NCBI GenBank assembly: GCA_015487015.1
Contig: WFQP01000117.1
Location: 1 to 35,862, forward strand
Direction: 5' to 3'
DNA: 35,862 nucleotides
From: Thiomicrorhabdus sp.
Lineage (GTDB): Bacteria > Pseudomonadota > Gammaproteobacteria > Thiomicrospirales > Thiomicrospiraceae
A model generated the notes under the pieces. The model searched no databases. It was not told the origin of the DNA and worked only from the letters and a program-made list of their open reading frames with translations. Positions 17,481 through 35,862 of this stretch are shown in pieces. Each line of letters begins with the position of its first letter. The stretch's first letter is position 1. The translations under genes and the position numbers were made by a program.

Positions 17481-18562
17481 AACGATTTTTTCCTGTTGTA
17501 ACGCTTACTTTGTCTGTGGTGGTTTTGTCTGCTTGTGGTACCAAGGAGGAGTTAAAGCCTTTTATTGCCCCTGTTTACCCTGTTGCGCCAGAAGAGCCTC
17601 GTTTTATTTATGAGCGCTCTTTGATGGGCAGTGCTGATGTGCGTGAGTTAACGTCTGAAGAGAAGTTTAAGGCGATGGCGACGGGGGTCGCAACCGGAGA
17701 GAAAAGTCTTATTAAGCCTTTTGATGTTGCGGTGCGTAAAGGGCGTATTTATGTAACGGATACGGTTGGACGAATGGTTGTGTTATTCGATATAAAGGGC
17801 AAGCGATTCGTAGAGTTTGGTCACCGTGGGCCGAATGTTTTGTTGAAGCCTGTTGGTATTACTGTTGCGCCTTCGGGAGATGTTTTTGTCGTTGATCTGA
17901 CAGATAAAAGTATTCATGTTTATGATAAGGATGGAAGGTTTTTGCGTAAGTTTGGCTCTGCTGAAGAGTTGAGTCGACCTGTAGATGTTGCCGTGAGTAA
18001 TGATGGTCGCTATGCTTATGTTGTGGATACTGGGGGGGTTCTGAGCGCCTTTCATCGGGTAGTAAAGTATGATGCTAAGACGGGTGAGGTGTTACAGATT
18101 ATTGGTGAGCGTAGCCCCTTGCTGGGTGGTTTTAACTTTCCTATGACGATTGCGATTGATTCAAAGGATCGTATTTATGTGTTGGATTCTGGAAATTTTC
18201 GTGTACAGCGTTTTAATTCAGAGGGGGAGTTTGATCTGACCTTTGGTAAAGTGGGTACGCGATTTGGACAATTTTCGCGTCCAAAAGGAATTGCAGTTGG
18301 TCCTAATGATAATGTGTATGTGATGGATGCATCGTTTGCTAATTTTCAAATATTTAATGATAAGGGTGAGTTGTTGATGTTTATTGGTCAACGAGGCGCA
18401 GATAATGAGCCTGGGGTGTTTTCATTGCCTGCTGGAATTGATGTAGATGAGGATGGTCGTATTTATGCCGTGGATCAGTTTTTCTCTAAAATTGAAGTGT
18501 TTCGCCCTTATGGTATGAAGCAGGGTGATGGTTATGCAGGTGTTGCGCCTGCTAAAGAGTAG
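17456..18562 (+). CDS. NHL-repeat beta-propeller lipoprotein
   Basis: A 368-residue protein with a good lipobox (VLSAC, Cys27), predicting a lipid-anchored protein. From about residue 85 it is built of NHL repeats such as GITVAPSGDVFVVDLTDKS, AIDSKDRIYVLDSGNFRVQ and GIDVDEDGRIYAVDQF, about six blades. Before the propeller, the stretch PRFIYERSLMG...TGEKSLIKPFDVAV has a counterpart in the lipoprotein at 34620, so the two are paralogues. NHL proteins are known companions of multiheme cytochrome genes; binding the cytochromes or their filaments is an inference. GGAG lies about 5 bases before the ATG, inside the cytochrome gene. A G7 tract is at 18032-18038. ccmA follows after 23 bases. Confidence 0.85.
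   Translation: MHYLSFLLKRFFPVVTLTLSVVVLSACGTKEELKPFIAPVYPVAPEEPRFIYERSLMGSADVRELTSEEKFKAMATGVATGEKSLIKPFDVAVRKGRIYVTDTVGRMVVLFDIKGKRFVEFGHRGPNVLLKPVGITVAPSGDVFVVDLTDKSIHVYDKDGRFLRKFGSAEELSRPVDVAVSNDGRYAYVVDTGGVLSAFHRVVKYDAKTGEVLQIIGERSPLLGGFNFPMTIAIDSKDRIYVLDSGNFRVQRFNSEGEFDLTFGKVGTRFGQFSRPKGIAVGPNDNVYVMDASFANFQIFNDKGELLMFIGQRGADNEPGVFSLPAGIDVDEDGRIYAVDQFFSKIEVFRPYGMKQGDGYAGVAPAKE
18032..18038. repeat. G7 tract inside the NHL lipoprotein gene
   Basis: Seven G in frame (Thr-Gly-Gly-Val). It is the last run of 7 or more G or C in the window. Confidence 0.85.
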
Positions 18563-18585: not shown

Positions 18586-19203
18586 ATGTTAAAAATTGAA
18601 GGTCTGGCGGTTGAGCGCGAGGAGCGTTTACTGTTCTCTGGTTTGTCTGTGTCGCTATCAGCAGGAGAGGGGTTGCACATTGTTGGTGAAAATGGGGCGG
18701 GTAAAACAACGTTATTGAGGGTTCTTTGTGGCTTAACTTTGCAAGCGTCAGGAAGTATAAGTTGGTGTGGACAAGATGTTTCAGTTTTTCGTGAAGAATA
18801 TTGTTCAGATTTACTTTACTTAGGTCATAAAAATGCCAACAAAACAGAGCTGAATTGCCGTGAAAATTTAAGGCTAGCTTTAGGGGTTTTATCAGTGTCT
18901 GATGAAGCGATAAGCGATGCATTGCATGATGCGGGTTTGGGGCTAATTTCTCATCTACCTACACGGTTTTTGTCTCAAGGTCAGCAGCGTCGGCTTTCGT
19001 TGGCACGTCTATTGTTAACAAAATCAAAGTTATGGATATTGGATGAACCTTATGTTGCCTTGGATTATAAGGCAATAGATTGGCTAGATTCTCACTTGGA
19101 ACGGCACTTAAAGAGTGGTGGAATGTTAATACTGACTTCACATCAAACGCTTACCTTGTCGAGCAAAATACGGGTGTTAAATTTAGGTGAGCAACATGCA
19201 TAA
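18586..19203 (+). CDS. ccmA: Cytochrome c maturation ABC transporter ATP-binding protein CcmA
   Basis: ATPase of the CcmABCD complex that releases holo-CcmE for heme delivery to apocytochromes. The 205 residues have Walker A GENGAGKTT (about 34-42), the signature LSQGQQRRLSLARLLL (about 131-146) and Walker B LWILDEP. It is the first gene of a complete ccmABCDEFGHI set, with AAGGTG before the ATG. It lies only 23 bases after the NHL lipoprotein gene, so the upstream cytochrome genes and the ccm genes are probably one transcript. Its 3' end overlaps ccmB by 8 bases. Confidence 0.96.
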   Translation: MLKIEGLAVEREERLLFSGLSVSLSAGEGLHIVGENGAGKTTLLRVLCGLTLQASGSISWCGQDVSVFREEYCSDLLYLGHKNANKTELNCRENLRLALGVLSVSDEAISDALHDAGLGLISHLPTRFLSQGQQRRLSLARLLLTKSKLWILDEPYVALDYKAIDWLDSHLERHLKSGGMLILTSHQTLTLSSKIRVLNLGEQHA

Positions 19204-19864
19204 AATGCTTTGGGCGTTATTCAGTCGAGATATGACTCTTTTTATGCATAGAAAGCAGGATGTTGTGACGGTTCTGGGTTTCTTTTTAATCGCAGTTGCA
19301 CTGTTTCCGCTAGGAATTTCCTCGGACCCTGAGTTATTAAGGACGATTGCACCAGGAGCGATTTGGATTGCGGCATTGTTTTCAACAGTTTTAGCTTTGG
19401 ATCGGTTGTTTTCAGAGGATTTAGATGATGGAACACTGGAGCAGCAAATGTTGATGCCTGTTCCTATTTCGTTGATGTTACTCGTTAGGTTAATCGCACA
19501 CTGGGTGATTACAAGCTTACCTATCGTATTGCTTGCGCCGATAATGGGTTTGCAGTTTGGACTTGCATTTAATGAGATTGTTATCCTTACATTAAGCTTG
19601 CTTGTTGGGACGCCAATATTGGTTTTATTGGGAGCAATTGGTGCGGCTTTAACTGTTGGATTAAAAAGTAGTGGTGGATTGGTTACATTATTACTTTTGC
19701 CGCTGTATGTTCCGGTCTTGATTTTGGGGAGTTCGGCCGTTTCATCGGTAATGAACGGTGCGGATGTAACGGCACATTTTTCTTTGATGGGTGCGGCTTT
19801 AATTATAAGTCTCGTTTTATCTCCTTTTGCGGTGGCTACGGCACTTAAAATTACACTGGATTAG
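19196..19864 (+). CDS. ccmB: Heme exporter / Ccm membrane subunit CcmB
   Basis: Membrane subunit of the CcmABCD complex, 222 residues with about six helices and the typical N-terminal FSRDMTLFMHRKQDVVTVLGF stretch (quoted in part: FSRDMTLF). The ATG at 19196 is preferred over the GTG at 19187 because AGGTGA (19185-19190) lies 5 bases before it. It overlaps the end of ccmA. Sixty-four bases separate it from ccmC, the only real gap in the operon; a TATAAT at 19875-19880 there lacks a good -35, so an internal promoter is doubtful. Confidence 0.95.
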   Translation: MHKMLWALFSRDMTLFMHRKQDVVTVLGFFLIAVALFPLGISSDPELLRTIAPGAIWIAALFSTVLALDRLFSEDLDDGTLEQQMLMPVPISLMLLVRLIAHWVITSLPIVLLAPIMGLQFGLAFNEIVILTLSLLVGTPILVLLGAIGAALTVGLKSSGGLVTLLLLPLYVPVLILGSSAVSSVMNGADVTAHFSLMGAALIISLVLSPFAVATALKITLD

Positions 19865-19928
19865 TTTTTATGCGTATAATCTGCAACCATATAAAATATC
19901 AAAAAATTAACATGTTAGGAAATTATCA

Positions 19929-20675
19929 ATGAGTATGACACGTCGAATACCTTGGATGAAGTATGCTTCAGCGTCCAATTTTTACCCTTTAGCAGATCGT
20001 CTTGTTCCTATTTTTATGGGGCTTGCTTTGGTTCTTGCTGTAATTGGTTTGTATTTAGGGTTTGTTGTTGCCCCTATTGATTACCAGCAAGGGAACAGTT
20101 ATCGAATTATGTTTATCCATGTGCCTGCGGCTTGGATGTCGATGTTTATCTATTTGTTGTTAGCTATGTACGCCATTATCTCTTTGGTATGGCGAGTTAA
20201 AATGGCCGATATAATGGCGTATTCTTTGGCACCTACTGGTGCAATGTTTACGTTTATTGCATTGTTAACGGGGGCTTTGTGGGGGCGTCCAACTTGGGGG
20301 ACATATTGGATCTGGGACGCACGATTAACTTCCGAGTTACTTTTGCTATTTTTGTACCTTGGTTATATGGGGCTTTACAGTGCGATTCCTGATCGCCAGA
20401 GAGCCAGTCGTGCCGCAGCATTTTTAGCGATCGTGGGTGCGGTGAATGTACCGATTATTTATTTCTCTGTTATCTGGTGGAATACCTTGCATCAAGGTTC
20501 CTCATTCTCTTTTTCTGAGGGGGCAAGTATGACGGATGCAATGCTCTATGCTCTGTTGTTAATGGCGCTTGCATGTTGGGCTTATACGATTGCGGTTGTT
20601 CTTCGTAGAGCGCAGGCATTGATTCTAGAACGTAAAAAAGTGGCTTTATGGGCCAGTCAGATTTCAAAAAAATAA
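19929..20675 (+). CDS. ccmC: Heme-handling protein CcmC
   Basis: Presents heme to CcmE on the periplasmic side. The 248-residue protein has six predicted helices, the tryptophan-rich WWD segment WGTYWIWDARLTSELLL, the conserved His in YRIMFIHVPAAWMS near residue 64 and a second in VIWWNTLHQGSS. These two His are the known axial ligands of the bound heme in the family. TTAGGA lies before the ATG. It is followed 13 bases later by ccmD. Confidence 0.96.
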   Translation: MSMTRRIPWMKYASASNFYPLADRLVPIFMGLALVLAVIGLYLGFVVAPIDYQQGNSYRIMFIHVPAAWMSMFIYLLLAMYAIISLVWRVKMADIMAYSLAPTGAMFTFIALLTGALWGRPTWGTYWIWDARLTSELLLLFLYLGYMGLYSAIPDRQRASRAAAFLAIVGAVNVPIIYFSVIWWNTLHQGSSFSFSEGASMTDAMLYALLLMALACWAYTIAVVLRRAQALILERKKVALWASQISKK

Positions 20676-20688
20676 GGAGACGTGAGTC

Positions 20689-20877
20689 ATGGATATAGCA
20701 GAGTTTTTACATATGGGTGGTCATGGTTTCTATATTTGGGGTTCTTATGGAACAGCGTTATTTTTAATGGTAATAGAAGGTATTTGGGTTTTTAAAAGAC
20801 GCAATAAAGCTAAAAAGGAACTTGAGCGAATGGAAGCAGATTTTGCACGTGTAGATGGTCAAGGGGTGAACGGATGA
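20689..20877 (+). CDS. ccmD: Small Ccm membrane subunit CcmD
   Basis: A 62-residue single-helix protein starting MDIAEFLHMGGHGFYIWGSY, with the helix (about 16-36) followed by a charged cytoplasmic tail (FKRRNKAKKELERME). CcmD stabilises the CcmABC-CcmE contact and is needed to release holo-CcmE. AGGAGA lies about 8 bases before the ATG. Its stop overlaps the ccmE start by 4 bases (ATGA). Confidence 0.93.
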   Translation: MDIAEFLHMGGHGFYIWGSYGTALFLMVIEGIWVFKRRNKAKKELERMEADFARVDGQGVNG

Positions 20878-21356
20878 AGCCTCGTAGTAAAAGACTTGTA
20901 TTGATTGGAGTGATTATTGTTGCATTTGGTTTTGCGGTGACGTTAGTTTTAAATGCTTTTCAGGAAAATCTCGTGTTTTTTCATACACCAACAGAGGTAA
21001 AAGAGCGAACTGTTGCTTATGATCGAACCATTCGCATTGGTGGTTTGGTTGAAAAAGGTACCTTTAAGCGTGAAGAGGAAACGACAACGGTTACATTTAA
21101 TGTAAGTGATGGCGAATCTTCTATTTTAGTCAGTTACACTGGTATTCTGCCGGATCTTTTTAGAGAAGGTCAGGGGATTGTTGCAGAAGGAAAGCTGTTA
21201 ACCAGTGGTCTGTTTGTAGCAAGTCATGTATTTGCGAAGCATGATGAAACATACATGCCTCCTGAAGCAGCAGAAGCATTAAAACGTGCGGAAGATAAGG
21301 CTATGGCACAGCCTGCAGAGCAGGCTGTGCTTGAATCAGTAGGAAAAGGAGAATAG
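20874..21356 (+). CDS. ccmE: Heme chaperone CcmE
   Basis: Periplasmic carrier, membrane-anchored by an N-terminal helix (about 7-28), that binds heme covalently through one histidine and passes it to CcmF. The OB-fold domain ends in the heme site H123-D-E-T-Y127, the normal HxxxY form rather than the Cys variant of some archaea and deltaproteobacteria. The 160 residues include a C-terminal Ala/Glu-rich tail. Start and stop are tightly packed with ccmD (4-base overlap) and ccmF (3-base gap). Confidence 0.96.
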   Translation: MKPRSKRLVLIGVIIVAFGFAVTLVLNAFQENLVFFHTPTEVKERTVAYDRTIRIGGLVEKGTFKREEETTTVTFNVSDGESSILVSYTGILPDLFREGQGIVAEGKLLTSGLFVASHVFAKHDETYMPPEAAEALKRAEDKAMAQPAEQAVLESVGKGE

Positions 21357-21359
21357 AGG

Positions 21360-23348
21360 ATGCTTCCTGAAATAGGACAATTTTTGATGGTATTGGCATT
21401 TTGCCTTGCTGTAATTCAGAGTATTTTACCGCTATTAGGTGCGCAACGTGGACAGTTGTCTTGGATGCGTATGGCGCCTAATTTGGCGTGGGCACAATTT
21501 ATTGCATTGGCATTTGCTTATGGGTTATTAACCTATGCATTTATTTATAATGATTTCAGTGTGGCTTATGCGGCTTCCAATTCAAGTATTAACCTCCCTA
21601 TAGAGTATAAAATTAGTGCGGTATGGGGTGGTCATGAGGGTTCATTGTTGTTATGGATTCTTATTTTAGCGGGCTGGGGGGTTGCGGTAGCAAGTTTCAG
21701 TAATAACTTACCCGTTGCTATGAGTAGCCGAGTTTTAGCGGTAATGGGGATGGTTTCCGTAGGGTTTATAGGGTTTATGGTTTTTACATCCAACCCTTTT
21801 GATCGTTTGATGATGGTACCTTTAGATGGTAATGATCTTAATCCAATGTTGCAAGATCCAGGAATGATTTTTCACCCTCCTTTGCTTTATATGGGGTATG
21901 TAGGGTTTGCGGTTGCTTTTTCATTTGCGATGGCGGCATTGATTGGCGGACGCTTAGATGCGTCTTGGGCTAGATGGTCAAGACCTTGGACAACGGTTGC
22001 TTGGGTTTTTCTAACATTCGGAATTGCACTAGGAAGCTGGTGGGCTTATGCCGAACTTGGTTGGGGAGGCTGGTGGTTTTGGGATCCAGTAGAAAATGCC
22101 TCGTTTATGCCTTGGTTACTCGCAACGGCTTTAATTCACTCATTAGCCGTAACTGAAAAACGTGGTGCATTTCGTAGTTGGACTGTGATGTTAGCTATTT
22201 TGACATTTGCATTGACGATTGTGGGTGCCTTTTTGGTTCGTTCTGGGGTTATTACTTCTGTGCATGCGTTTGCAACAGACCCTACGCGTGGTGTCTATAT
22301 TTTAGTTTTTCTTGCGGTAGTTATTGGTGCTTCATTAATTTTATACGCTTGGCGCGCTCCGAAAGTTGGAATGGGCGGAGGTTTTAGTTCTTGGTCGAGA
22401 GAAACGGTGCTGCTTGCCAATAATGTATTGTTGGTTGTTGCTTGTTCAGCGGTATTTATTGGAACAATGTATCCACTGATTATTGATGCACTAGGCATGG
22501 GAAAAATGTCAGTAGGGCCTCCATATTTCAACTCTGTTTTTGTACCCTTAATGGTTCCTTTGCTCGTTATGATGATGATTGGGCCACTGGTCTCGTGGAA
22601 AAGTGCCACCTTTAAGGCAAGTTTTGAGCGTTTGTATCCGGTGCTTGCGGTAGGGATTTTGGCTGCGGTAGTTTGGCCTTTGGCTATGGGTGAGTGGGGG
22701 TTGATTCCTGCTGTTATGGTCTTTATTGCGACGGGTATTGTAGGTGCATTTGTTGTGGATGTATTGCCTAGAATTAAGGCTCCTGATCTGGCTGGGCGAA
22801 TGGCTAAGGTTAAACAGTTAAATACCAGTTGGTTGGGAATGCATGTTGCTCACATTGGTATGGCGATTACGATTATTGGTATGGCGATGGCGGCAGGTTA
22901 TCAGTCTGAAAAAGATGTTCGAGTGGTGCCTGGTGACGTGGTTGAGCTTGCTGGTTATAGCTTTACTTTTAAAGGTGTTCAGAATGTGAGAGGTGCGAAC
23001 TACGCATCTCAGTATGGTACGGTTGAAGTAAGAGAAAACGGCGAGTTATTAACCACATTACACCCTGAAAAACGTACCTATGATAAGCATATGGGTATGC
23101 CAATGACGCAAGCCAGTATTGACCGTTCGCTCTTTAGGGACTTATATGTTTCTTTAGGTGACTCTGTTGGTGCAAATGGTGCCTGGATTATCCGAGTGTA
23201 CTACAAGCCATTTATGACATGGCTGTGGACAGGAGTGATTATCATGGGTCTTGGAGGGGTTCTTGCGATCAGTGATCGACGCTACCGAGTTAAAATTAAG
23301 CGACGTCTAACAGGGCGTCGAGAAGAAAATCCAGCGGTTGTTGATTAG
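21360..23348 (+). CDS. ccmF: Heme lyase subunit CcmF
   Basis: Large integral membrane subunit of the cytochrome c heme lyase, 662 residues with about 15 helices. It contains the WWD segment GWGGWWFWDPVEN, with flanking periplasmic His residues (VWGGHEGSLLLW and IFHPPLLYMGYVG, and a C-terminal NTSWLGMHVAHIGMA), which hold heme b and receive holo-CcmE. The C-terminal periplasmic domain (about 520-625) and last helix are complete. The length is normal. It is followed 9 bases later by ccmG. Confidence 0.97.
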   Translation: MLPEIGQFLMVLAFCLAVIQSILPLLGAQRGQLSWMRMAPNLAWAQFIALAFAYGLLTYAFIYNDFSVAYAASNSSINLPIEYKISAVWGGHEGSLLLWILILAGWGVAVASFSNNLPVAMSSRVLAVMGMVSVGFIGFMVFTSNPFDRLMMVPLDGNDLNPMLQDPGMIFHPPLLYMGYVGFAVAFSFAMAALIGGRLDASWARWSRPWTTVAWVFLTFGIALGSWWAYAELGWGGWWFWDPVENASFMPWLLATALIHSLAVTEKRGAFRSWTVMLAILTFALTIVGAFLVRSGVITSVHAFATDPTRGVYILVFLAVVIGASLILYAWRAPKVGMGGGFSSWSRETVLLANNVLLVVACSAVFIGTMYPLIIDALGMGKMSVGPPYFNSVFVPLMVPLLVMMMIGPLVSWKSATFKASFERLYPVLAVGILAAVVWPLAMGEWGLIPAVMVFIATGIVGAFVVDVLPRIKAPDLAGRMAKVKQLNTSWLGMHVAHIGMAITIIGMAMAAGYQSEKDVRVVPGDVVELAGYSFTFKGVQNVRGANYASQYGTVEVRENGELLTTLHPEKRTYDKHMGMPMTQASIDRSLFRDLYVSLGDSVGANGAWIIRVYYKPFMTWLWTGVIIMGLGGVLAISDRRYRVKIKRRLTGRREENPAVVD

Positions 23349-23357
23349 GAGAGAGTT

Positions 23358-23888
23358 ATGAATCGACATATGATTCCATTGGTTGTTTTTGCCGCCCTGT
23401 TGTTGTTATTTTGGGTAGGGCTTGGTTTGAATCCAAAAATTATTCCCTCTCCCTTAATTGGAAAGGAGGCGCCTAAGTTTGAGCTCCCTGAGTTGCATGA
23501 TCCGCAAAAAGTAGTGAATAATGAGATGTTAAAAGGGCAGGTTACGCTTTTTAATGTATTTGCTTCGTGGTGTGTTTCATGTCGTGCTGAGCATCATCAT
23601 TTATTGAAGTTGCAACGCCAAGGCTTTCACTTAATTGGCTTGAATTATAAGGATGAAAAGCGTGATGCGTTACTTTATTTAAGGCAGCTAGGCGGAGACC
23701 CTTATGAGATGATTGCTTATGATCATAAAGGAGATATTGGTATTGAGTGGGGTGTTTATGGAACACCTGAAACATTTGTTGTGGATAAAAAAGGGATTGT
23801 TCGTTATAAACATACAGGGCCTTTATATCGTGAAGTCATTGAAAATGAGTTAATACCATTGATTAGAGAGTTGGAGCAAGAGTCATGA
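23358..23888 (+). CDS. ccmG: Thiol:disulfide interchange protein CcmG (DsbE)
   Basis: Periplasmic membrane-anchored thioredoxin that reduces the CXXCH cysteines of apocytochromes before heme attachment. The 176 residues have an anchor helix (about 5-23), the CcmG-type IGKEAPKFELPEL stretch, the active site FASWCVSCRAEH (C72, C75) and the YGTPETFVVD cis-proline loop with the acidic CcmG signature GVYGTPE. AGGAG precedes the ATG. Its stop overlaps the ccmH start by 4 bases. Confidence 0.96.
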   Translation: MNRHMIPLVVFAALLLLFWVGLGLNPKIIPSPLIGKEAPKFELPELHDPQKVVNNEMLKGQVTLFNVFASWCVSCRAEHHHLLKLQRQGFHLIGLNYKDEKRDALLYLRQLGGDPYEMIAYDHKGDIGIEWGVYGTPETFVVDKKGIVRYKHTGPLYREVIENELIPLIRELEQES

Positions 23889-24364
23889 GAGCAGTGATAG
23901 GAATCTTTATGGCGATGAGTTTGTTATTAAGCTCTTCGGTTTATGCGTTAAAAGCGGGTGTTCCTTTGGAGTTTAAAGACGAAGAACAAGAAGAGTTGTA
24001 CAATGATATGCTCCATGAGTTGCGTTGTACCGTCTGTCAAAATCAGTCCATTGCAGGTTCAAATGCAAGTTTGGCTGATGATTTGAGAGGTAACTTATAT
24101 AAGATGGTAAAAGAAGGGGCTGATGAAGAGGAGATTAAAGGGTTTATGGTAGATCGTTATGGTGATTTTGTTTTATATCGTCCTAATTTTAACTCATCTA
24201 CCTACTTACTTTGGATCGGGCCTTTCTTGTTATTGTTACTAGGAGTCATTGTTTTAAGGTTGAATGTTCGTTCTCGGAATAAAATTAATAATAAAAGTGA
24301 ATTAACGTCGGAAGAGTCTGAAATGTTGGAAAGTTATTTAGACTCAAAAAAGGAGAAGAAATAG
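23885..24364 (+). CDS. ccmH: Cytochrome c maturation protein CcmH (short form)
   Basis: Heme lyase subunit that holds apocytochrome thiols. The 159 residues have a signal peptide (cleavage near VYA-LK, residue 21), the redox motif LRCTVCQNQSIAGSN (C48, C51) and one C-terminal membrane helix (about 103-122). The second half found in fused E. coli CcmH is separate here as ccmI, the usual arrangement outside enterobacteria. It is followed without a gap by ccmI, whose GGAG lies inside ccmH. Confidence 0.95.
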   Translation: MRAVIGIFMAMSLLLSSSVYALKAGVPLEFKDEEQEELYNDMLHELRCTVCQNQSIAGSNASLADDLRGNLYKMVKEGADEEEIKGFMVDRYGDFVLYRPNFNSSTYLLWIGPFLLLLLGVIVLRLNVRSRNKINNKSELTSEESEMLESYLDSKKEKK

Positions 24365-25210
24365 ATGTTTATAACGATAATAGCGTTAATTTGTTTGGTT
24401 GTCGTCGTATGGGCGGTGTGGCCATTGATTAGGGCAAAAAAAGATGTAAGTCCAGACTTACAGTCGGTTAACTCAAAGCTTTTAGAGTCACAAATTTCGG
24501 AGTTAGATGTTGATTTAGAGCAGGGAGTGATTAAAAAAGATCAATATGATGCTGCGCGACTAGACTTACAGCGAACTTTTTTAGAGACGGCTACGGTAAG
24601 TGATATTCAGCCGAGTTTACATGCAAAATCTGATCCTTTGCTTATTTTATTGATTGCTGTTGTGTTACCAATTAGTGCTTATTTAATTTATAAACAGATT
24701 GGGACAGACCCTGCTTCAATTAAGTATATGGCTGATCAGCCAGCAGGAAGTTCACATGGTGCAGGTAGTGATATTGATGCAATGTTGGTGGCTGTGAAGG
24801 CAAAAGCAGAAGCAGATGATGGGGATTTGGAGAGTTGGAGAATGTTGGCCCAAATCCTCCATGTTAAGAAGGATATGTCTGGTGCAGAGAAGGCATATGC
24901 TCATTTATTAAATCAGGGTGTAGAGGATGCTGAAGTTTATGCAAATTATGCCGATGTTTTAGCATCGCAAGCGGGTGGAATTTTAGTTGATTCTCCTGCG
25001 TTTAAATGGGTTGAAAAGGCACTGAGCCTTGAGCCAAATCATCAACAGGCGTTATGGATTGCAGGTACAGCTGCTTACTACAGTAAAGACTATGAATTAG
25101 CTGAATATTTTTGGAAGCGTTTATTAGTTCTTCTCGATCCAGAGTCAGACTCCTATAAAGTGATTGCTCAAAATTTAGAAGAAATGAAGCGAGAAGCATC
25201 TTCTAAGTAG
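24365..25210 (+). CDS. ccmI: Cytochrome c maturation TPR protein CcmI
   Basis: Apocytochrome chaperone of the heme lyase complex, 281 residues. Two membrane helices (about 2-22 and 94-115) are followed by a periplasmic TPR domain (about 130-280) with repeats such as WRMLAQILHVKKDMSGAEKAY and ADVLASQAGG, ending near the membrane-distal helix. The N-terminal part has the usual basic cytoplasmic loop. This is the last ccm gene, and a strong terminator follows 27 bases past its stop. Confidence 0.93.
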   Translation: MFITIIALICLVVVVWAVWPLIRAKKDVSPDLQSVNSKLLESQISELDVDLEQGVIKKDQYDAARLDLQRTFLETATVSDIQPSLHAKSDPLLILLIAVVLPISAYLIYKQIGTDPASIKYMADQPAGSSHGAGSDIDAMLVAVKAKAEADDGDLESWRMLAQILHVKKDMSGAEKAYAHLLNQGVEDAEVYANYADVLASQAGGILVDSPAFKWVEKALSLEPNHQQALWIAGTAAYYSKDYELAEYFWKRLLVLLDPESDSYKVIAQNLEEMKREASSK

Positions 25211-25298: not shown

Positions 25299-25610
25299 AT
25301 GAATAAAATAGTGTTTATATTTGTGGCTAGCTTGCTCTCTTTTAATGTATCTGCAGGGAGTAGTGGTGAGCGAATTTATAATCAAGTTTGCTTTACTTGT
25401 CATAATCAAGGGGTCTTTGGGGCTCCAAAGCTGGGTGAGATTTCAGATTGGGTTGACCGCATATCTACGGGAAAAAGTATGTTAAATCATCATGCAATTG
25501 AGGGGTATGCGGGTAGCCGAGGTTTTATGCCACCCAGAGGAGGAGATCCTTCATTAAGTGATCAGGAAGTTCGAGACGCTGTTCAGTATATGATAGATAA
25601 AAGCTGGTAA
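25299..25610 (+). CDS. Monoheme cytochrome c5-like protein
   Basis: A 103-residue secreted class I cytochrome. The ATG at 25299 is chosen because AAGGGA lies 7 bases before it and it begins a clean signal peptide (cleavage after VSA-G, residue 19); an earlier in-frame TTG sits inside the ccmI terminator. The heme site is C31-F-T-C-H35 and the sixth ligand is probably M77 in GFMPPRGG. The short GAPKLGEISDW spacing fits the c5 family, soluble periplasmic carriers of fairly high potential. It could shuttle electrons between the multiheme conduit and the terminal oxidase. Confidence 0.88.
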   Translation: MNKIVFIFVASLLSFNVSAGSSGERIYNQVCFTCHNQGVFGAPKLGEISDWVDRISTGKSMLNHHAIEGYAGSRGFMPPRGGDPSLSDQEVRDAVQYMIDKSW

Positions 25611-25771: not shown

Positions 25772-25861
25772 ACGATTGAATCATGTAGTCGGCAAGTTTT
25801 TTATCTAGCTATTAGTTTTATTTATGTTTTTTGTTTGTTAAAAGTTATTAAGGAGTTTGTT

Positions 25862-26644
25862 ATGGCACATTTTAAAATGAAGTTATCATTGGTTGGTCTG
25901 GGGTCAGCGTTATTTTTAGGCGTTGCTCAGGCAGGAATTGTGGGTTCTATGCATGATTTAAGTACGACAAATCCAAATGTAGCAACCCCTATTCCTGGTG
26001 GAACGGCAGAAATATGTGTGTTTTGTCACACGCCGCATGGTACAGATACATCCGCACCAGCACCTTTATGGAATAAAATACTGCCTACTGCCGCAAGTTT
26101 TACAACCTATGATGCGTTAGGTACAGCCACATTGGATGGCCAAATTGATTTGAATGAGGGTGGTATCTCTTTGGCTTGTTTGTCATGCCATGATGGAACG
26201 ACAGCTCTTGATTTGGTCTTAAATGCACCAACAGTTACACAGGGTACTTATCGTTATGATGCGGCAGGAACGAATCTTGGTGGAGGAATTACCATGGCTT
26301 CATTTGCGACAAATATTGTCCCTGTATTAGGAAAAGATTTGAAAAATGATCATCCTGTTGGTGTTCAGTATGCAGGGGGTGGTTTAAATTGGGCTCCAAT
26401 TACTGGTGGGAATACGGTTGCTTTGGCGGCAAATGATAAGTTATTTAATGAGCCTATTTGGGATAATAATCGTTTATGGATAAGTGCGGTTGGGGATGCC
26501 GGTTTACCTTTATATAAAGGTACAACATTAGGGCCGATGGTTGAGTGTGCCAGTTGTCATAACCCTCATAAAACAGATTTTGGTTCTTTTTTACGTATGT
26601 CAAATTCGGGTAGTGGTTTGTGTTTGGCGTGCCATATTAAATAA
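25862..26644 (+). CDS. Secreted tetraheme c-type cytochrome, OmcE-like candidate nanowire subunit
   Basis: A 260-residue exported cytochrome. The ATG at 25862 has AAGGAG before it and begins a signal peptide cleaved near AQA24. Four heme sites: C52-VFC-H56, C106-LSC-H110, C229-ASC-H233, C254-LAC-H258. The mature protein has exactly four further His, H31 (MHDLS), H59 (TPHG), H164 (NDHPV) and H236 (NPHK), which would make every heme bis-His. The order CVFCHTPH / CLSCHDGT / NDHPV / CASCHNPH / FLR / CLxCH is the pattern I know from Geobacter OmcE and related extracellular cytochrome nanowires; filament formation is inferred. Between hemes it is rich in Gly, Thr, Ala and Asn. It has its own candidate promoter, and a hairpin follows it. 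Confidence 0.85.
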   Translation: MAHFKMKLSLVGLGSALFLGVAQAGIVGSMHDLSTTNPNVATPIPGGTAEICVFCHTPHGTDTSAPAPLWNKILPTAASFTTYDALGTATLDGQIDLNEGGISLACLSCHDGTTALDLVLNAPTVTQGTYRYDAAGTNLGGGITMASFATNIVPVLGKDLKNDHPVGVQYAGGGLNWAPITGGNTVALAANDKLFNEPIWDNNRLWISAVGDAGLPLYKGTTLGPMVECASCHNPHKTDFGSFLRMSNSGSGLCLACHIK

Positions 26645-26689
26645 TAATTATTCAATTAATAAAACCGTTCCTAATGATTTAAATTTTTT

Positions 26690-26720: not shown

Positions 26721-26756
26721 TTTAGGCTGCTTTATTGATAATCGATTGGAGTTTAA

Positions 26757-27728
26757 ATGTTTTATATGCAAAAACGAAAAATACCAATTTTTTGGTTCGG
26801 TGGAATTTTAGCTGTATTTTTGGGGATCTCTACTTCTGTATCCTCGTCTGGTGAAAAGGGTGGTGAGCTGTTTGCAACGGTGGATGGTTATAACATCACA
26901 GAAGCTGTTTATTTTTCTGCACTGCAGGCCGAAGCTAAAAGACGCTACTATCATGGTCGAATTACGGATGAGCGACTTGCAGAGTTAAAAAAGGATGTTG
27001 CGAAAAACTTGATTGATCAGGTTTTACTCATTAATGAGGCTGAACGTTTAGGTTTGGTACCCGATTTTAAAAAAATTGAGTTAGCTTTAGAGCAGTTTGA
27101 TCAGCGATATGCTGAGGATGAGGCATGGCAAAAAGATCGGGATCGAGTTCTTCCGCAGTTAAAAAAGCAATTTGAATCTAGGGAATTAGTTACTTTACTA
27201 GAGAAGAAGGTGCGTTCAGAATTTGTTTTAACGGATGCTTTAAAGAGGGAGTTTTATAATGAAAATCCTGAGCTATTTATTTTTCCTGAGCGTAAAAAAG
27301 TATCTTTAATTTTGAAAAAAGTGCCCCCAACTTCTCTTTCAGAAGAGTGGGAGGCTGCAAAAGATCTATTAGTCTCTTTATCTGAACGAATTGCTTCCGG
27401 TGAAGAGTTTTCTGAGTTGGCCAAAAAGTACTCTGATGATGAAACGGCTTCTCTAGGAGGGGATATGGGGTATCAGCATAAAGGGATGCTTCATAAAGAT
27501 GTGGAAGAAGTTTTAAGCAAATTAGATTTAGGGGAGTTAAGTAAACCTATTCGATTATTGCAAGGTTATGTTTTAGTTCGTATTGAAGAGGTAGTTCCTG
27601 CACAAAAAATTGCTTATAAGGATGCAGAGCAGCAGGTGACTCAGTTGCTGTCCAGAAAGCTTTCAGATGAGCGATGGGCTAATTTGTTAAAAAAATTACG
27701 CAATGACTCTGTTGTTGTTACGTTTTGA
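26757..27728 (+). CDS. Exported parvulin-type peptidyl-prolyl isomerase (PpiC/SurA-like)
   Basis: A 323-residue protein with a signal or anchor helix (about 10-30), an N-terminal chaperone-like helical part (VDGYNITEAVYFSALQ, DQVLLINEAERLGL) and one parvulin domain (about 175-285) with FPERKKVSLILKKV, FSELAKKYSDDETASLGGDMGY and IRLLQGYVLVRIEE. It is expected to help proteins fold in the periplasm; here the clients may be the barrel encoded next and the secreted cytochromes. Isomerase genes of this kind are recurrent neighbours of outer-membrane multiheme cytochromes. TTGGAG lies 5 bases before the ATG. The barrel gene begins 14 bases downstream. Confidence 0.88.
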   Translation: MFYMQKRKIPIFWFGGILAVFLGISTSVSSSGEKGGELFATVDGYNITEAVYFSALQAEAKRRYYHGRITDERLAELKKDVAKNLIDQVLLINEAERLGLVPDFKKIELALEQFDQRYAEDEAWQKDRDRVLPQLKKQFESRELVTLLEKKVRSEFVLTDALKREFYNENPELFIFPERKKVSLILKKVPPTSLSEEWEAAKDLLVSLSERIASGEEFSELAKKYSDDETASLGGDMGYQHKGMLHKDVEEVLSKLDLGELSKPIRLLQGYVLVRIEEVVPAQKIAYKDAEQQVTQLLSRKLSDERWANLLKKLRNDSVVVTF

Positions 27729-27742
27729 TTGTGAGCCTGAAT

Positions 27743-29527
27743 ATGAACAGGTTATCTTTCAGTCTTATTTTAAGAATGCATGGTGCAATGTTTGCTATCG
27801 TATTTTTTATTGGTCTGTTGGGTTCTGTTTCTGTATTGGCAAGTGGCTTGGTAAGCACTAATGTTAATGGAAGTATTGGGTATGTTTATCGCTCTACTAT
27901 GTACGACTCTGGTGCTTATGATAATCAGAATTTATTAAAGGCTAATATAGATAATACTTTTTTTATTTGGCGTGACTGGTTTATTGTAGGAAGTTCTAGC
28001 TTAGTTTTTACACAAGAAGAGACTGATTCAGAAAATGGAAGCAGTGGTAGCTTTTCTTCTACGGGGCAAGTTTCATTTAGTGTGTTGCCTCAAAGCGCGA
28101 CACCATTTGGATTTAGTTATAGTCGCTCTGATTCTAGAGTTAATTCGAATTTTAAGTATTTTGCAGGCAGTAATGCGGCTTCATTAGATGATAATGTTAC
28201 CAATGATTCATTGGTTGTTCATCAAAGCTTGGTGGGAAAGGGGTATCGTTTAAAGGTTCAATACTCGGATGATCAATTTGATTCCTCTTTGCGTGGTAAG
28301 TACGGAGCAAGTACAGTTGGAGTTTCGGGGACTTTGAGAGGTGTTGCAGGTGTACTTAGAGCTTCTATTACGCAGAAAGATGAGGTAACTTATGATAAAG
28401 TGGATCGAAAAAGTAATGCAGCAAGGTTAAACCATCATTACACGGGTTTTCAGCAAACAACAATCAGTACGTCGTTAAGCAGTAGTCAGATTCAGCAGGT
28501 TTTGCCAGCCACAATAGCTAATGCAAATAGTCGCTTGGCAAGCTATGATGTGACATTAAATCAGGCATCCATTTCATTGATTTGGCGAAGTTTGAATAAA
28601 AAAATGACTATTACGAGTGGCCTTAGGTATTCTGGGGTAGAAAGTGCCGTCAGTAATAGTTTGGCAGATGCTTCAAGCTCCGCCTTATCTGCTAATTTAG
28701 GGCTGGTTTATCGCATTACACAGAATTTAACGTTTAATTCAAGTAGTACGCGTGTGGCCAATGAGTTTTCAGGTGGTGAGTCTACTGTTGCACAAGACAG
28801 GATTGGAGTAAATTATCGTTCTGATGGTATTAAGTTAGGGCGCTATAATTATGACTGGCGTTTTGGTGTAGATTTGGGTCGTCGTGAGGATGATGGTAAA
28901 GAATCAAATAGCTCTACTGTTTCTTTAGGGCATGGCATCGGTCGTAAATGGTCCTTTGCGCGTAGCCAGCAGGTGTATGTGAGGGGGGCACAAGATTATT
29001 CTATGGACTCTTTAGTCGATCGTGTTCGTCAAAGGTTAAGTCATCGAGCTAGCTTGGGTTGGAAGCAGTTTTCACCAGGAATTAGCCGCAGAGCTCAGTT
29101 GCAGTTTTCTGACCAGCGTGATGTTGGTGATGAAACGACTCTACAGACGTTTAGTATGGATATGAGTCAACAAACTTTGTTGACTCGACGCGTGAAGCTA
29201 AATGGTTCTCTAAACTATCAGCTTACAAATTATCAGTATGCAGGTAGTTCGGGTGATGTTTCCTCATCTGATAGCTCAGTAATTTCTGCAGATGGTGGGT
29301 TGTCTTATATGAATCCTTTTTCAATGGCAGGATTGATGTTTACCTCGAATTATAGGTATAGTCAATCTATTGTTGGATCAGATAGTGATTTGACTGCTCA
29401 ACAAACGTGGAATAATAAGCTAAATTATCGGGTGGGAAAAATTGATGTTTCGTTACAGTATCTGTATCGCGAAGCTCGAAAAATTAGTTATAATGGCGTT
29501 TACTTTAGTGTAAAACGAGTATTTTAA
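27743..29527 (+). CDS. Outer-membrane beta-barrel protein (candidate electron-conduit porin)
   Basis: A 594-residue exported protein with signal peptide (to about VLASG, residue 35). The rest is a long series of alternating polar/hydrophobic segments ending in aromatic residues, such as SFSVLPQSATPFGFSYSR, RLKVQYSDDQF and KLNYRVGKIDVSLQYLYRE, and the last residue is Phe after FSVKRV, the signal for BAM-dependent insertion. It has no Cys and no CXXCH, so it carries no heme and lacks the Cys pair of MtrB. The neighbours (cytochromes, isomerase, propellers) suggest it houses or exports a cytochrome; that is inference. An unrelated porin or a TIGR03016-like barrel are alternatives. The ATG at 27743 is chosen over an upstream TTG that overlaps the isomerase stop. 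Confidence 0.75.
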   Translation: MNRLSFSLILRMHGAMFAIVFFIGLLGSVSVLASGLVSTNVNGSIGYVYRSTMYDSGAYDNQNLLKANIDNTFFIWRDWFIVGSSSLVFTQEETDSENGSSGSFSSTGQVSFSVLPQSATPFGFSYSRSDSRVNSNFKYFAGSNAASLDDNVTNDSLVVHQSLVGKGYRLKVQYSDDQFDSSLRGKYGASTVGVSGTLRGVAGVLRASITQKDEVTYDKVDRKSNAARLNHHYTGFQQTTISTSLSSSQIQQVLPATIANANSRLASYDVTLNQASISLIWRSLNKKMTITSGLRYSGVESAVSNSLADASSSALSANLGLVYRITQNLTFNSSSTRVANEFSGGESTVAQDRIGVNYRSDGIKLGRYNYDWRFGVDLGRREDDGKESNSSTVSLGHGIGRKWSFARSQQVYVRGAQDYSMDSLVDRVRQRLSHRASLGWKQFSPGISRRAQLQFSDQRDVGDETTLQTFSMDMSQQTLLTRRVKLNGSLNYQLTNYQYAGSSGDVSSSDSSVISADGGLSYMNPFSMAGLMFTSNYRYSQSIVGSDSDLTAQQTWNNKLNYRVGKIDVSLQYLYREARKISYNGVYFSVKRVF

Positions 29528-29690
29528 CTTTTTATGTAACAGTTCTACTGGCCTTTAAATTATGGGTCAGGCCATGTAATAAATATGCGTTTATAGCTAT
29601 AAATTCATGTTTTTTGATGCGGGTATATCCTCTTTGTAGGGGCTGCGTGAGTTGTTATCTTTTAACTTTAAATTTTGTGGGGATGAAATA

Positions 29691-30089
29691 GTGGTGATAA
29701 AACAAAAACTATTAGGTTTGGGCGTTATTCTAATATCGCTTTTTACTATGCTAGCACCAATGAAAGCAAATGCTGAATATGGTGATATTGTAATTAATAA
29801 CTTTGCTGATGCAGCAGAAATGAGACCTGCTGTATTTCCGCATTGGTTTCATCGTATTAGATTTAACTGTAGTGTTTGTCATGCCGATTTAGGCTTTAAA
29901 TTTGGTGCAGGTAAGAATGAAATTACCATGGCTAAAATTATTGAAGGTGAGTTTTGTGGTGCCTGTCATAATGGTGAAATTGCGTGGTCAATTGAAAATT
30001 GTGATGTTTGCCACTCAGGTATTCCTGGGACACCAACACAAGTGAAGGGTAGCCCTTTACGTGCCTCTAATATTGCAGCTCCTAAATAA
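29691..30089 (+). CDS. Triheme c7-type periplasmic cytochrome (132 aa)
   Basis: A small exported cytochrome starting at GTG 29691, which has GGGGA 7 bases upstream; the signal peptide ends near ANA (residue 28). Three heme sites: C60-SVC-H64, C89-GAC-H93, C104-DVC-H108. PHWFH just before heme 1 supplies two distal His. There is no third spare His, but a Met in EITMAKI is conserved in the two sister proteins (30099, 33170) and may be the last ligand. This is the c7-type triheme unit known from Geobacter-like periplasmic and nanowire cytochromes (TIGR04257 type). Likely a periplasmic electron carrier. The gap upstream (29528-29690) holds no clear promoter. Confidence 0.85.
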   Translation: MVIKQKLLGLGVILISLFTMLAPMKANAEYGDIVINNFADAAEMRPAVFPHWFHRIRFNCSVCHADLGFKFGAGKNEITMAKIIEGEFCGACHNGEIAWSIENCDVCHSGIPGTPTQVKGSPLRASNIAAPK

Positions 30090-30098
30090 GAAGGTTGG

Positions 30099-30701
30099 AT
30101 GATTATGTATAAACTATCAGTTCTAATATTAATAGCATCCATTTCTGGGATTTTTTCTCTGGCTGCTTCTGCCGATTCAAGTAATACGTTTAACCGTATG
30201 TTAAAGCCTCAGGCACCAGCAAATTTACCACCTGCTGAGGATGGGCTCCATGATCCAGATAACGCAGGTACTCATATGTTGCAGCCACCTAAAGAAGCGT
30301 TTAATGGTTTAGTTAAAGCAAAGTGGGGTAATAAGGTTGATTGGATTAAGTCAATTAATACTAAAAAGATCTCACCACGTCATAATGCTTCTGATGCGGC
30401 ACCCAAGCCGATTATTATGAATTTGAATATTGTGCGTCAAGTAAAGGGTTCCATGCCTGATGTGGTTTTTCCACATGATAGGCATACGCTGTTATTAGCG
30501 TGCTCTAACTGTCATACTGGTATTTTTATTCCTCAAAAAGGCGCGAACCAGATGAGTATGGCAGCGATTATGTTGGGTGAATCTTGTGGTAAATGTCATG
30601 GAGCGGTTGCGTTTCCAATTACAACGTCTACCTGTAAGCTGTGTCACTCTAAGCCTAAAGCTAAAAATGCGGTTTTAAAACGTTCAGTGGCTGGTAATTA
30701 A
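30099..30701 (+). CDS. Triheme c7-type cytochrome with N-terminal extension (200 aa)
   Basis: Exported protein with a signal peptide (to about ASA25), an unusual about 95-residue segment without hemes (THMLQPPKEAFNGL, VDWIKSINTKKISPR), and a c7 triheme domain with C135-SNC-H139, C163-GKC-H167, C179-KLC-H183, distal H126 and H129 (FPHDRH) and conserved M154. The whole layout is shared with the protein at 33170; the pair are paralogues. The front segment may dock to a partner. The ATG at 30105 is an alternative start. It follows the first triheme gene by 9 bases and precedes the helical gene by 2. Confidence 0.85.
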   Translation: MIMYKLSVLILIASISGIFSLAASADSSNTFNRMLKPQAPANLPPAEDGLHDPDNAGTHMLQPPKEAFNGLVKAKWGNKVDWIKSINTKKISPRHNASDAAPKPIIMNLNIVRQVKGSMPDVVFPHDRHTLLLACSNCHTGIFIPQKGANQMSMAAIMLGESCGKCHGAVAFPITTSTCKLCHSKPKAKNAVLKRSVAGN

Positions 30702-33169: not shown

Positions 33170-33682
33170 ATGTTTAAAATGTTATTGGCAGGGTGCTTAA
33201 TATTGCCCGTTTTTACCTCCTCGTTTGCAGCAGAAATTACCACGCTCAAAGAAGATAAAATTCATGATGTAAATGGCCCCGGTTTTTCTAAGTTACAAGA
33301 GCCAAAAGAAGCACTGTCAGATTTTCCACAGCGTGCGGATGGAACAATTAATTGGGTAAAAGCACTTGATCAAAAATTGATTTCTCCTCGTTCTAATAAA
33401 GTAGGAGATGGGAAAATGACCAGTGTTAACTTAGATTTAATTTTAAAAAATACAGGCTCAATGCCTTATGTATTATTTAGTCATAAAGTTCATACTCAAA
33501 TATTAACCTGTGCAAATTGTCATGTTGATATTTTTTTGCCAAAACAAGGTTCTAATTTTATTAATATGAACAATATTATGGCAGGAGAGCAATGTGGTGT
33601 GTGTCATGGTGCCGTCGCCTTTGCTGTTCAAGATTGTACACAATGTCATAATGTTCCTTCTGATAAAGGCAGCTTACGTTAA
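33170..33682 (+). CDS. Triheme c7-type cytochrome with N-terminal extension (170 aa)
   Basis: Paralogue of the 200-residue protein at 30099. Signal peptide to about SFAAE (residue 21); LAGC at residues 6-9 looks like a lipobox but comes too early. The pre-heme segment KLQEPKEALSDF...NWVKALDQKLISPRSN matches its sister, followed by GSMPYVLFSHKVH. Hemes C114-ANC-H118, C142-GVC-H146, C156-TQC-H160; distal H105 and H108; conserved M133. AAGGAT lies 6 bases before the ATG. The stop overlaps the start of the next gene by one base. Likely periplasmic or outer-membrane-associated electron carrier. Confidence 0.85.
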   Translation: MFKMLLAGCLILPVFTSSFAAEITTLKEDKIHDVNGPGFSKLQEPKEALSDFPQRADGTINWVKALDQKLISPRSNKVGDGKMTSVNLDLILKNTGSMPYVLFSHKVHTQILTCANCHVDIFLPKQGSNFINMNNIMAGEQCGVCHGAVAFAVQDCTQCHNVPSDKGSLR

Positions 33683-34620
33683 TGTTGCGTTTTTGGGCTA
33701 TTTTATTCTGTCTGGCTATCGCGCCGCTGAGCGTTCGTTCAGAGATACTAGAAGAGCTCGAAACGGTTGATAGTTTTCGCACAATCAGTGAAGGGTGGCT
33801 GTCTTCTATTGTAGGCACTGAGTTTGAGTTTCTTGAGAGCCCCGTTTCTGTCGCGGCAAAAGATAATAAAATCTATTTTATTGATGATGTTTTGATGGGA
33901 TTATATGTTTATGACATGGTGAGTCAGCAAGCATCGAGTTTAAAATCCGTCTATAAACAGCTCAAGAGCAATTCTGCTCGTTTATTTGTTACAGATGATC
34001 AAACACTGTTTGTTATTGACTCTTTTGGTAGTCAAGTCTCTAAGTACAGTTTAAGAGGCAACTTGATTACTGATTTTTATGACTCTTTAAATTTAAATTC
34101 CCCTGTTGATATGTGTATTAACCCAGCTAATCAACATGTGTTTATTGCAGATGCTTTTTTTGGGCATATTATTGAGTTTTCTGCAACGGGGAATCCTTTG
34201 GCTTTACATGGAATAAAGGAGGAAGGAGGTACACAAGCGGGTCGAGATATTGTTGGCATGGCTTGTACTGATGATGAATTATTTGTTGTTTCTAAATTGA
34301 GCAAAAACATAAATGTATTTTCTTTTTCTGGTAGGTTTTTACGTCAAATTCCACGTTTAGAGATACGAAGCCCTTCCTCAATCGCAGTGGATTCTTATGG
34401 CAGGATTTATATAAGTGATAATTTTAATGACCAAATTGTTATTTATAGTAGTGCTGGAGGTAAGCCTGAACGTTTTGGGCGTTCTGGTTTAGGGCCTACA
34501 CACTTTAGAAAAATTAAAGATTTATCAATTGATGGTGATTATTTATATGTAGCAGATAATATGAATCATAGTATTAAGGTTTTTATAATTAAGCCACCTA
34601 AAGAAAGAGTTGTGGACTGA
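33682..34620 (+). CDS. Exported beta-propeller (NHL-like) protein
   Basis: A 312-residue protein with a signal peptide (cleavage near VRS-E, residue 20) and about six degenerate NHL-type blades: SPVSVAAKDNKIYFIDDV, SPVDMCINPANQHVFIADAF, SPSSIAVDSYGRIYISDNF and IKDLSIDGDYLYVADNMN. There is no lipobox, so it should be soluble in the periplasm or exported further. It is translationally linked to both neighbours by one-base overlaps (TAATG and TGATG). A contact role with cytochromes or the filament is a guess from context. Confidence 0.8.
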   Translation: MLRFWAILFCLAIAPLSVRSEILEELETVDSFRTISEGWLSSIVGTEFEFLESPVSVAAKDNKIYFIDDVLMGLYVYDMVSQQASSLKSVYKQLKSNSARLFVTDDQTLFVIDSFGSQVSKYSLRGNLITDFYDSLNLNSPVDMCINPANQHVFIADAFFGHIIEFSATGNPLALHGIKEEGGTQAGRDIVGMACTDDELFVVSKLSKNINVFSFSGRFLRQIPRLEIRSPSSIAVDSYGRIYISDNFNDQIVIYSSAGGKPERFGRSGLGPTHFRKIKDLSIDGDYLYVADNMNHSIKVFIIKPPKERVVD

Positions 34621-35649: not shown

Positions 35650-35862
35650 ATGCAAAAAAGATGGTATTTTTGGGGTGGGAAGGTTTCTAGAAGGTTTAGA
35701 AAACTTTTTTTATGCTTTACGTTATGTTTGACAACATTATCTGTTGTGGCAGGTGTCGAAGACATCGTCAACACCAAACACAACCTGTCCAGCAGTGGTC
35801 CAGGAACCGTTAAAGCCACCACCGAAAGTCGTGTGTGTGTTTTCTGCCACACCCCTCATGGC
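35650..35862 (+). CDS. Secreted multiheme c-type cytochrome, OmcE-like (3' end outside window)
   Basis: The frame opens at 35650 and runs out of the window after 71 codons. It has a signal peptide (MQKRWYFWGG..., cleavage near VVAG, residue 35) and then TKHNLSSSGPGTVKATTESR followed by the first heme site C63-VFC-H67-TPHG. The H44 and H70 positions match H31 and H59 of the tetraheme protein at 25862, so a further nanowire-type cytochrome is expected downstream. Codon use changes sharply at about 35755: the signal peptide uses the usual A/T-ending codons, while the mature part is dominated by C-ending ones (AAC, ACC, CAC, GTC, TCC), suggesting very high expression or recombination. Confidence 0.8.
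   Translation, partial: MQKRWYFWGGKVSRRFRKLFLCFTLCLTTLSVVAGVEDIVNTKHNLSSSGPGTVKATTESRVCVFCHTPHG

Follow-up and report, generated by a model that had tools for sequence, protein, structure and literature searches.

In the OmcE and OmcS filaments, one heme is ligated by a histidine of the neighbouring subunit, as passages of PMC9473688 and PMC12954529 describe, and OmcE homologues have been described across bacteria and archaea (passages of PMC12307469). The OmcE filament has a rise near 34 A. OmcE is associated with metal reduction, whereas the Uet cluster has been linked in print to electron uptake. Passages of PMC10734462 describe the Uet set as a tetraheme cytochrome (UetA), a peptidyl-prolyl isomerase (PPIase, UetB), a barrel (UetC), triheme cytochromes (UetD, UetE and UetG), NHL proteins (UetH and UetI) and an undecaheme cytochrome (UetJ). 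MHCR is the homologous cluster in Ca. Thiomicrorhabdus electrophagus ISEC-1, which was enriched on a cathode at a vent (passages of PMC9751133), and a homologous cluster was also described in SREC-4 and a clade of vent Thiomicrorhabdus (passages of PMC13293256); according to the same passages of both papers, the Thiomicrorhabdus that carry it were enriched or grown on cathodes. The Uet/MHCR cluster in Thiomicrorhabdus is already in print. When Ca. Tenderia grew on a cathode, three triheme genes were among the most highly expressed (passages of PMC5371394).

We analyzed a stretch of 35,862 nucleotides from Thiomicrorhabdus sp., called the window here, and found that it holds together a UetA-type tetraheme, a UetB-type PPIase, a UetC-type barrel, the trihemes UetD, UetE and UetG and the NHL proteins UetH and UetI, as compared with the descriptions in the passages of PMC10734462. 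Matched in this way by gene descriptions, not by sequences, the tetraheme gene is uetA in the electron-uptake cluster published as Uet/MHCR. The Uet cluster of Ca. Tenderia electrophaga and the MHCR of Ca. Thiomicrorhabdus electrophagus have, in the passages that describe them, the tetraheme, trihemes, PPIase, barrel and propellers found here, together with an undecaheme whose counterpart here would be the incomplete UetJ, and the Thiomicrorhabdus MHCR also has cytochrome c maturation (ccm) genes, as the window does. The features are as follows; H59 is a histidine of UetA discussed below.

16575..17480, + strand: OmcE-like pentaheme sister in which the H59 equivalent is absent (first motif CVYCHVPP), a candidate for a terminal subunit; residues 78-300 match 7TFS at E=7e-16
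17456..18562, + strand: NHL beta-propeller, lipoprotein-like leader by eye; PF01436 E=1e-25
18586..25210, + strand: cytochrome c maturation (System I) genes ccmA, B, C, E, F, G, H and I; labels by inspection and gene order
25299..25610, + strand: small monoheme c-type cytochrome; PF13442 E=3.7e-12 for 25302-25607
25862..26644, + strand: UetA, tetraheme OmcE-family cytochrome, the finding reported here; 7TFS and 9YUQ matches, eight conserved histidines
26757..27728, + strand: UetB, parvulin-type peptidyl-prolyl isomerase with SurA-like N-terminal domain; PF00639 E=4.3e-17, PF13624 E=1.5e-9, PDB SurA E=2.4e-11
27725..29527, + strand: UetC, outer-membrane beta-barrel type protein with 28 long strands; predicted fold (AlphaFold2)
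29652..30089, + strand: UetD, triheme c7-type cytochrome; TIGR04257 66.5 bits, cut-off 40
30099..30701, + strand: UetE, triheme c7-type cytochrome; TIGR04257 62.2 bits
30704..33160, + strand: three UetF-like proteins (30704-31537, 31562-32443 and 32471-33160)
33170..33682, + strand: UetG, triheme c7-type cytochrome; TIGR04257 67.1 bits
33682..34620, + strand: UetH, NHL beta-propeller; PF01436 E=4e-11
34620..35648, + strand: UetI, NHL-like beta-propeller, lipoprotein-like leader by eye; NF035926 (ScyF, NHL) E=1e-32, 113.7 bits against a cut-off of 350
35650..35862, + strand: first 71 codons of UetJ, where an OmcE-like N-terminal domain begins; the contig ends here

UetA and its solved relatives

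The uetA frame encodes 260 amino acids from an ATG at 25862, with AAGGAG 6 bases 5' of it. It contains four CXXCH motifs (C52-H56, C106-H110, C229-H233 and C254-H258), and beyond these and the leader the only histidines are H31, H59, H164 and H236; a ninth, H3, lies within the hydrophobic leader. Provided that the leader is cleaved near A24, a site judged by eye, the count of eight histidines that the original prediction gave for the mature protein is borne out.

When all PDB chains were searched with phmmer, UetA matched the OmcE filament of Geobacter sulfurreducens (7TFS) at E=3.8e-26 over residues 7-260, its full length, and 9YUQ, a putative multiheme cytochrome c with 16 chains in the entry, at E=3.6e-20. 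Beyond these two there was no significant match; the next was unrelated at E=1, and no other cytochrome appeared up to E=10. Because 7TFS matches UetA so strongly and over this length, the histidine pattern is not a product of chance. OmcE has a leader, four CXXCH motifs and four further histidines at equivalent positions, as does UetA, and the two are 37% identical; OmcE has 232 residues against 260, the extra residues of UetA lying mostly between hemes 2 and 3, and its host is a Geobacter whereas that of UetA is a gammaproteobacterial sulfur oxidizer. 9YUQ, 40% identical to UetA, has four hemes and the same eight histidines. All eight were invariant in an alignment of UetA, OmcE, 9YUQ and three orthologues from the genus, and UetA has the four-heme, eight-histidine pattern at the OmcE positions.

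We also searched with a profile of 81 UetA-family rows, which found 7TFS at E=2e-39 and 9YUQ at E=2.6e-37. It reached OmcS (6EF8) at E=0.0074 over 18 positions only and the periplasmic carrier NrfB at E=5.6 only, and AvECN (8E5G) and PcECN (8E5F) were absent up to E=10. Since the latter two were absent, the match of UetA is to OmcE and not to cytochrome nanowires in general. Kinship by sequence with AvECN and PcECN was ruled out on the same ground, and kinship with the OmcS nanowires was rejected given the short 6EF8 match and the difference of four versus six hemes. The profile search that had been proposed against OmcE, AvECN and PcECN was positive for the first and negative for the other two, and the protein is OmcE-like, as the original prediction had it; best matches to soluble periplasmic cytochromes only had been named as the outcome that would speak against this, and the sole significant solved relatives were OmcE and 9YUQ.

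In Pfam, UetA matched a generic doubled-CXXCH model (E=2.7e-11) and, at its C-terminal end, cytochrome c7 (25.2 bits, cut-off 24.8); no NCBIfam nanowire model names it. Its AlphaFold2 model was poor (mean pLDDT 50.9). The top PDB fold match of this low-confidence model was again 7TFS (E=4.1e-3, prob 0.85, TM 0.30), with no fold match at E<=0.001, and 9YUQ was absent among the fold matches listed.

A scan confirmed at least 572 relatives of UetA, and the counts for loci use the best 80 of these. Exactly four CXXCH motifs were present in all 80, and the matched stretch had exactly eight histidines in 43, 9 to 12 in 35, and 7 in two, both of whose matches begin behind H31. Among 81 aligned relatives, H31 was conserved in 79 of the 79 that cover it, H59 in 80, and the other six histidines in all 81. 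The nearest named relative among the matches listed was from Thiomicrorhabdus sp. S012_112 (92% identity), and UetA orthologues of the genus were 76-92% identical to that of the window.

The gene had also been credited with its own promoter-like site and with a hairpin behind it. The promoter scan gave no + strand site within 25611-25861, ahead of uetA, and only three sites in 25200-26900 as compared with 5.5 in shuffles. A 10-bp stem is present at 26690-26720, 3' of uetA, but its z was -0.78, 43 of 200 shuffles folded equally well, and no + strand terminator was listed 3' of the gene. The promoter scan and the shuffle folding give no support to a separate promoter for uetA or to a terminator 3' of it, and this arrangement was rejected. 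Kinship with OmcE stood, these two regulatory features did not, and the identity of the gene as uetA of an electron-uptake cluster had been missed.

The gene cluster and its distribution

UetC had no Pfam match and no PDB sequence match. Its AlphaFold2 model (pLDDT 86.0) showed 28 long strands, and the top PDB fold match was MtrB of the Mtr complex (6R2Q_B, E=4.7e-10, TM 0.44), with many other barrels ranking behind. The window cluster differs from Uet/MHCR in its three UetF-like genes and in a UetJ split by the contig end; the C-terminal remainder of UetJ lies on contig C104 with 3 CXXCH motifs there, and the middle is missing. The UetF-like genes stand three times in tandem here against one or two recognized in most other loci, and the last two copies (31562-32443 and 32471-33160) are 65% identical over 193 amino acids; the label equates them, by position only, with a TPR protein that neighbours the trihemes of Tenderia in the published passages. 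Directly 5' of the cluster is a tRNA-Arg (ccg), behind which the first gene is, by inspection, TlpA/thioredoxin-like (both in window 15589-16318); tRNA genes are common integration sites.

A comparable set reportedly accompanies the filament cytochrome in the Osc (OmcS-companion) assembly cluster of Geobacter, where a PPIase, a channel and a beta-propeller, which we take to be OscH, OscEFG and OscD, lie beside it as their counterparts do here; this likeness is one of description, not of sequence. Two further systems, both from methane-partner bacteria, were put aside as counterparts: the 16/26-heme operons and the Oet conduits. A PPIase and propellers or a barrel occur there as well, but the passages on them describe other cytochromes.

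Within the family, an OmcE-type match (E<=1e-5) occurred in 5 of 62 genomes, and all five belong to the 32 genomes of the genus. Four genus genomes had UetA itself, G044 had only its sisters, and the TIGR04257 triheme family was above cut-off in the same 5 of 32. In the tree, the four Thiomicrorhabdus UetA rows form a long separate branch. The ccmF-like ORF of the cluster was 88-94% identical to its counterparts in the 4 other genomes that carry the cluster, as against 49-50% identity to the ccmF of 11 other genus genomes, which forms a separate lineage, and 16 of the 32 had no ccmF at E<=1e-20. Because of this identity pattern and these absences, the maturation genes seem, as far as sequence can tell, to travel with the cluster.

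Beyond the genus, we examined the neighbours of uetA in the best 80 of the at least 572 relatives; contigs often end early, and all these counts are lower bounds. The PPIase adjoined UetA in 77 loci, triheme cytochromes were present in 71, and the barrel was recognized by sequence in 39. Downstream in the 77 UetA-PPIase loci, an NHL protein was found in 63 and an OmcE-like ORF in 53. Two UetA-like genes stood apart. The one in a Caldilineales MAG of the Chloroflexota (L047, 10001-10768) has no recognized cluster neighbours and groups with gammaproteobacterial sequences, the result of either transfer or a binning error. The other (L075, 10001-10744, Ramlibacter alkalitolerans) is an orphan copy without the cluster in which H59 is replaced by Q; the same strain has the cluster elsewhere (L099).

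H59 in UetA and its sister proteins

The cluster encodes three OmcE-like proteins: UetA, UetJ and the pentaheme sister at 16575-17480. UetJ of genome G045 has 793 amino acids and 11 CXXCH motifs; its residues 16-227, which hold three heme motifs, matched positions 9-219 of 232 in 7TFS (E=1.9e-22), and a fourth motif follows at 248 with seven more behind it. UetJ of G044 also has 11 CXXCH motifs, the start of this copy being cut.

The H59 equivalent was kept in all 80 UetA rows that adjoin a PPIase (79 distinct; 77 scan loci plus L016, L018, which is the L026 contig, and L019, several others being near copies) and in all 42 UetJ-type ORFs, defined as downstream ORFs with at least 4 CXXCH motifs. 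We found 26 OmcE-like ORFs that lie 5' of UetA or, on contigs of the genus, at the corresponding position, 22 of them without H59 and 4 with it. The 22 comprise 18 tetrahemes and 4 Thiomicrorhabdus pentahemes in which the other seven ligand histidines are kept; with the window pentaheme, this class makes 23 rows, and its seven other histidines are invariant in the alignment. The four upstream ORFs that keep all eight histidines are pentahemes of another class. Such eight-histidine pentahemes (CVYCHTPH or CVYCHAPH) make up one tree group (L155-L160, L165, L176, L177, L027, L031, L034 and L103) and occur in Magnetococcales and several beta- and gammaproteobacteria.

We then considered 30 draft genomes chosen for a UetA locus without an adjacent H59-less copy. 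They contained 26 further OmcE-like ORFs, neither UetA nor UetJ-sized (UetJ-sized matches and two frames of 605 and 623 amino acids were left out); 13 of these lacked H59 and 13 had all eight histidines. Of the H59-less 13, 12 were pentahemes whose loci carry the label gammaproteobacterial or Chromatiaceae, and the remaining one was a Gallionellaceae tetraheme; they kept the other histidines, one row being incomplete. Counted per genome, 14 drafts had an H59-less copy (one being L075), 9 had H59-bearing third copies only, and 7 had no third match at E<=1e-8. All 36 H59-less rows aligned, one of them incomplete, lack the H59 equivalent and keep H31.

A quick tree of 113 domains, with 30 of the 80 UetA rows and 28 of the 42 UetJ rows (those with at least 6 CXXCH), placed five changes of the H59 state, with 40 of 110 inner branches under 80. 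The number was still five without OmcE, 9YUQ and L039, a tree in which 27 of the 28 UetJ rows have the H258 equivalent outside the aligned part, and three when L100 and L103, two long H59-less rows of unsure place, were also removed. A single clade of all 36 H59-less rows was rejected (p-AU 0.0011). We infer from these trees that H59 was lost three to five times. If loss fell evenly on the four distal histidines, and the quick trees are trusted, the chance that every loss struck the same one is 1/256 for five losses and 1/16 for three.

Passages of the review PMC7096707 state that the ligand of heme 5 in OmcS comes from the adjacent monomer, and in their two-monomer figure heme 1 is exposed at one end, while at the opposite end the exposed hemes are 5 and 6. 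Because heme 5 takes its ligand from the adjacent monomer and the ends are exposed in this manner, the cross-subunit donor of OmcS appears to sit near the heme-1 end. H59 of UetA is located three residues behind the heme-1 histidine, in CHTPH, the same place as that suggested for the OmcS donor, which is presumably His16 of a CHTMH motif. Since H59 stands beside heme 1, where the OmcS donor appears to sit, H59 rather than H31 is, by this analogy, the likely cross-subunit ligand of UetA. H31, which had been put forward as the histidine donated between subunits, is less likely in this role because the sisters lose H59 but keep H31 in 36 of 36 rows. The literature searched did not give the residue number of the OmcE inter-subunit ligand.

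The H59 pattern could also be explained if H59 were an ordinary intra-subunit ligand and the H59-less sisters, rather than being filament ends, acted as enzymes or as points of electron entry whose heme is open or has a different ligand. This explanation concerns the sisters and is compatible with UetA as a filament subunit. It would fit the gammaproteobacterial pentahemes without H59, in which 11-14 histidines and a fifth heme make a substitute ligand possible, and the 16 of 30 UetA-bearing genomes in which no H59-less copy was seen. However, no Met or other substitute residue conserved in at least 80% of the 22 H59-less rows stands out against 7 UetA rows, the residue at the H59 position itself varies (P, Q, T, S, A, I or R), and L051 and L102 have seven histidines for four hemes in the stretch read. 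We regard this explanation as one to be taken seriously, though the odds are against it.

A proposed filament of UetA and its possible ends

We propose that UetA forms an extracellular bis-His heme filament for electron uptake, in which a histidine of the neighbour, most likely H59, completes one heme, and we give this reading a probability of roughly 0.7. It is based on homology, conserved ligands, the gene set, the predicted barrel fold and a patchy distribution; from these we infer secretion, polymerization, H59 as the donor, the roles of the partners and the direction of flow. UetA would be exported and, like OmcE, would most likely polymerize extracellularly into an insulated bis-His heme chain, in which each subunit has one heme that a histidine of its neighbour, most likely H59 of CHTPH, completes. 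UetB would be a likely folding helper, the MtrB-like barrel UetC would provide the passage through the outer membrane, the trihemes UetD, UetE and UetG would act as periplasmic carriers, and UetJ, with its OmcE-like domain and seven more hemes, would form a junction or tip. Electrons would probably move inward, from a mineral or electrode, and support CO2 fixation; this direction is taken from papers about relatives. Several observations count against the filament reading: identity to OmcE is no higher than 37%, the poor monomer model does not establish the fold, Pfam offers a generic model and a c7 match barely above its cut-off, no NCBIfam nanowire model names the protein, and the barrel was recognized by sequence in 39 of 80 loci only.

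It is also conceivable that UetA works at the outer surface or outside the cell as a monomer or short stack that passes electrons to UetJ and the barrel without a filament. Passages of PMC10734462 place this tetraheme cytochrome outside the cell, as part of a porin-cytochrome system, the word nanowire is absent from the main text of PMC9751133 and PMC13293256, and the OmcE-like domain also occurs in proteins of other architectures. Non-polymerizing OmcE-like proteins may exist, as UetJ and the pentahemes share this domain. Against this, UetA matches a proven filament subunit over its full length with all ligands kept, and a monomer would leave one heme short of a ligand if, as in OmcE, that ligand is supplied by the neighbour; we consider a UetA without a filament improbable. 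Far less probable still is a UetA that carries electrons within the periplasm and has no extracellular role: it is a small c-type cytochrome with a weak c7 match at its C-terminal end, and tetraheme carriers are common in periplasms, but among solved structures only OmcE and 9YUQ match it significantly, NrfB appearing only at E=5.6.

Within the filament reading, a wire with distinct ends can be drawn, a tentative extension that we would not expect to hold in full. UetA would be the repeat that donates H59. A sister without H59 could accept a ligand but could not donate one, and is therefore a possible terminal subunit; it may start or cap the heme-1 end. UetJ, in which seven more hemes follow heme 4, would finish the wire at the opposite end and connect it either with the MtrB-like barrel or with the exterior. 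Two observations run counter to the sister as an end: the H59-less pentahemes have spare histidines, and no H59-less copy was seen in 16 of the 30 draft genomes, including 7 without a third OmcE-like match at E<=1e-8.

In the literature searched, as far as the passages seen extend, we found no paper tying UetA, the tetraheme of the cluster, to OmcE filaments, and none in which a Uet filament had been imaged or its structure solved. The term OmcE does not occur in PMC9751133, and neither OmcE nor filament occurs in PMC13293256; PMC13264449 covers undecaheme cytochromes and OmcE and states, in the passages seen, that nanowires were not investigated there. New here are the three OmcE-like proteins in the cluster, the H59 pattern and the idea of specialized wire ends. 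If the filament reading is true, cytochrome nanowires do more than export electrons from metal reducers, and the same subunit family serves CO2-fixing bacteria that draw electrons in, including vent bacteria reported on cathodes in the passages cited above. UetA is a concrete protein to seek in biocathode biofilms, and the single-histidine difference between UetA and its sister makes both the subunit-linking residue and wire termination testable. A wire with distinct ends, if true, would answer how cytochrome nanowires terminate, since passages of PMC7096707 call the capping of OmcS filament ends unclear.

As for the surroundings of UetJ, Ccs-type maturation genes, an oxidase-like membrane protein and a TPR protein precede it in G045, by inspection (L020, 1-3472 and 3529-5910). 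Contig C49 of the same genome has another OmcE-like N-terminus behind NHL3, and G038 has two different UetJ C-terminal parts; because of these, some genomes may have two UetJ genes.
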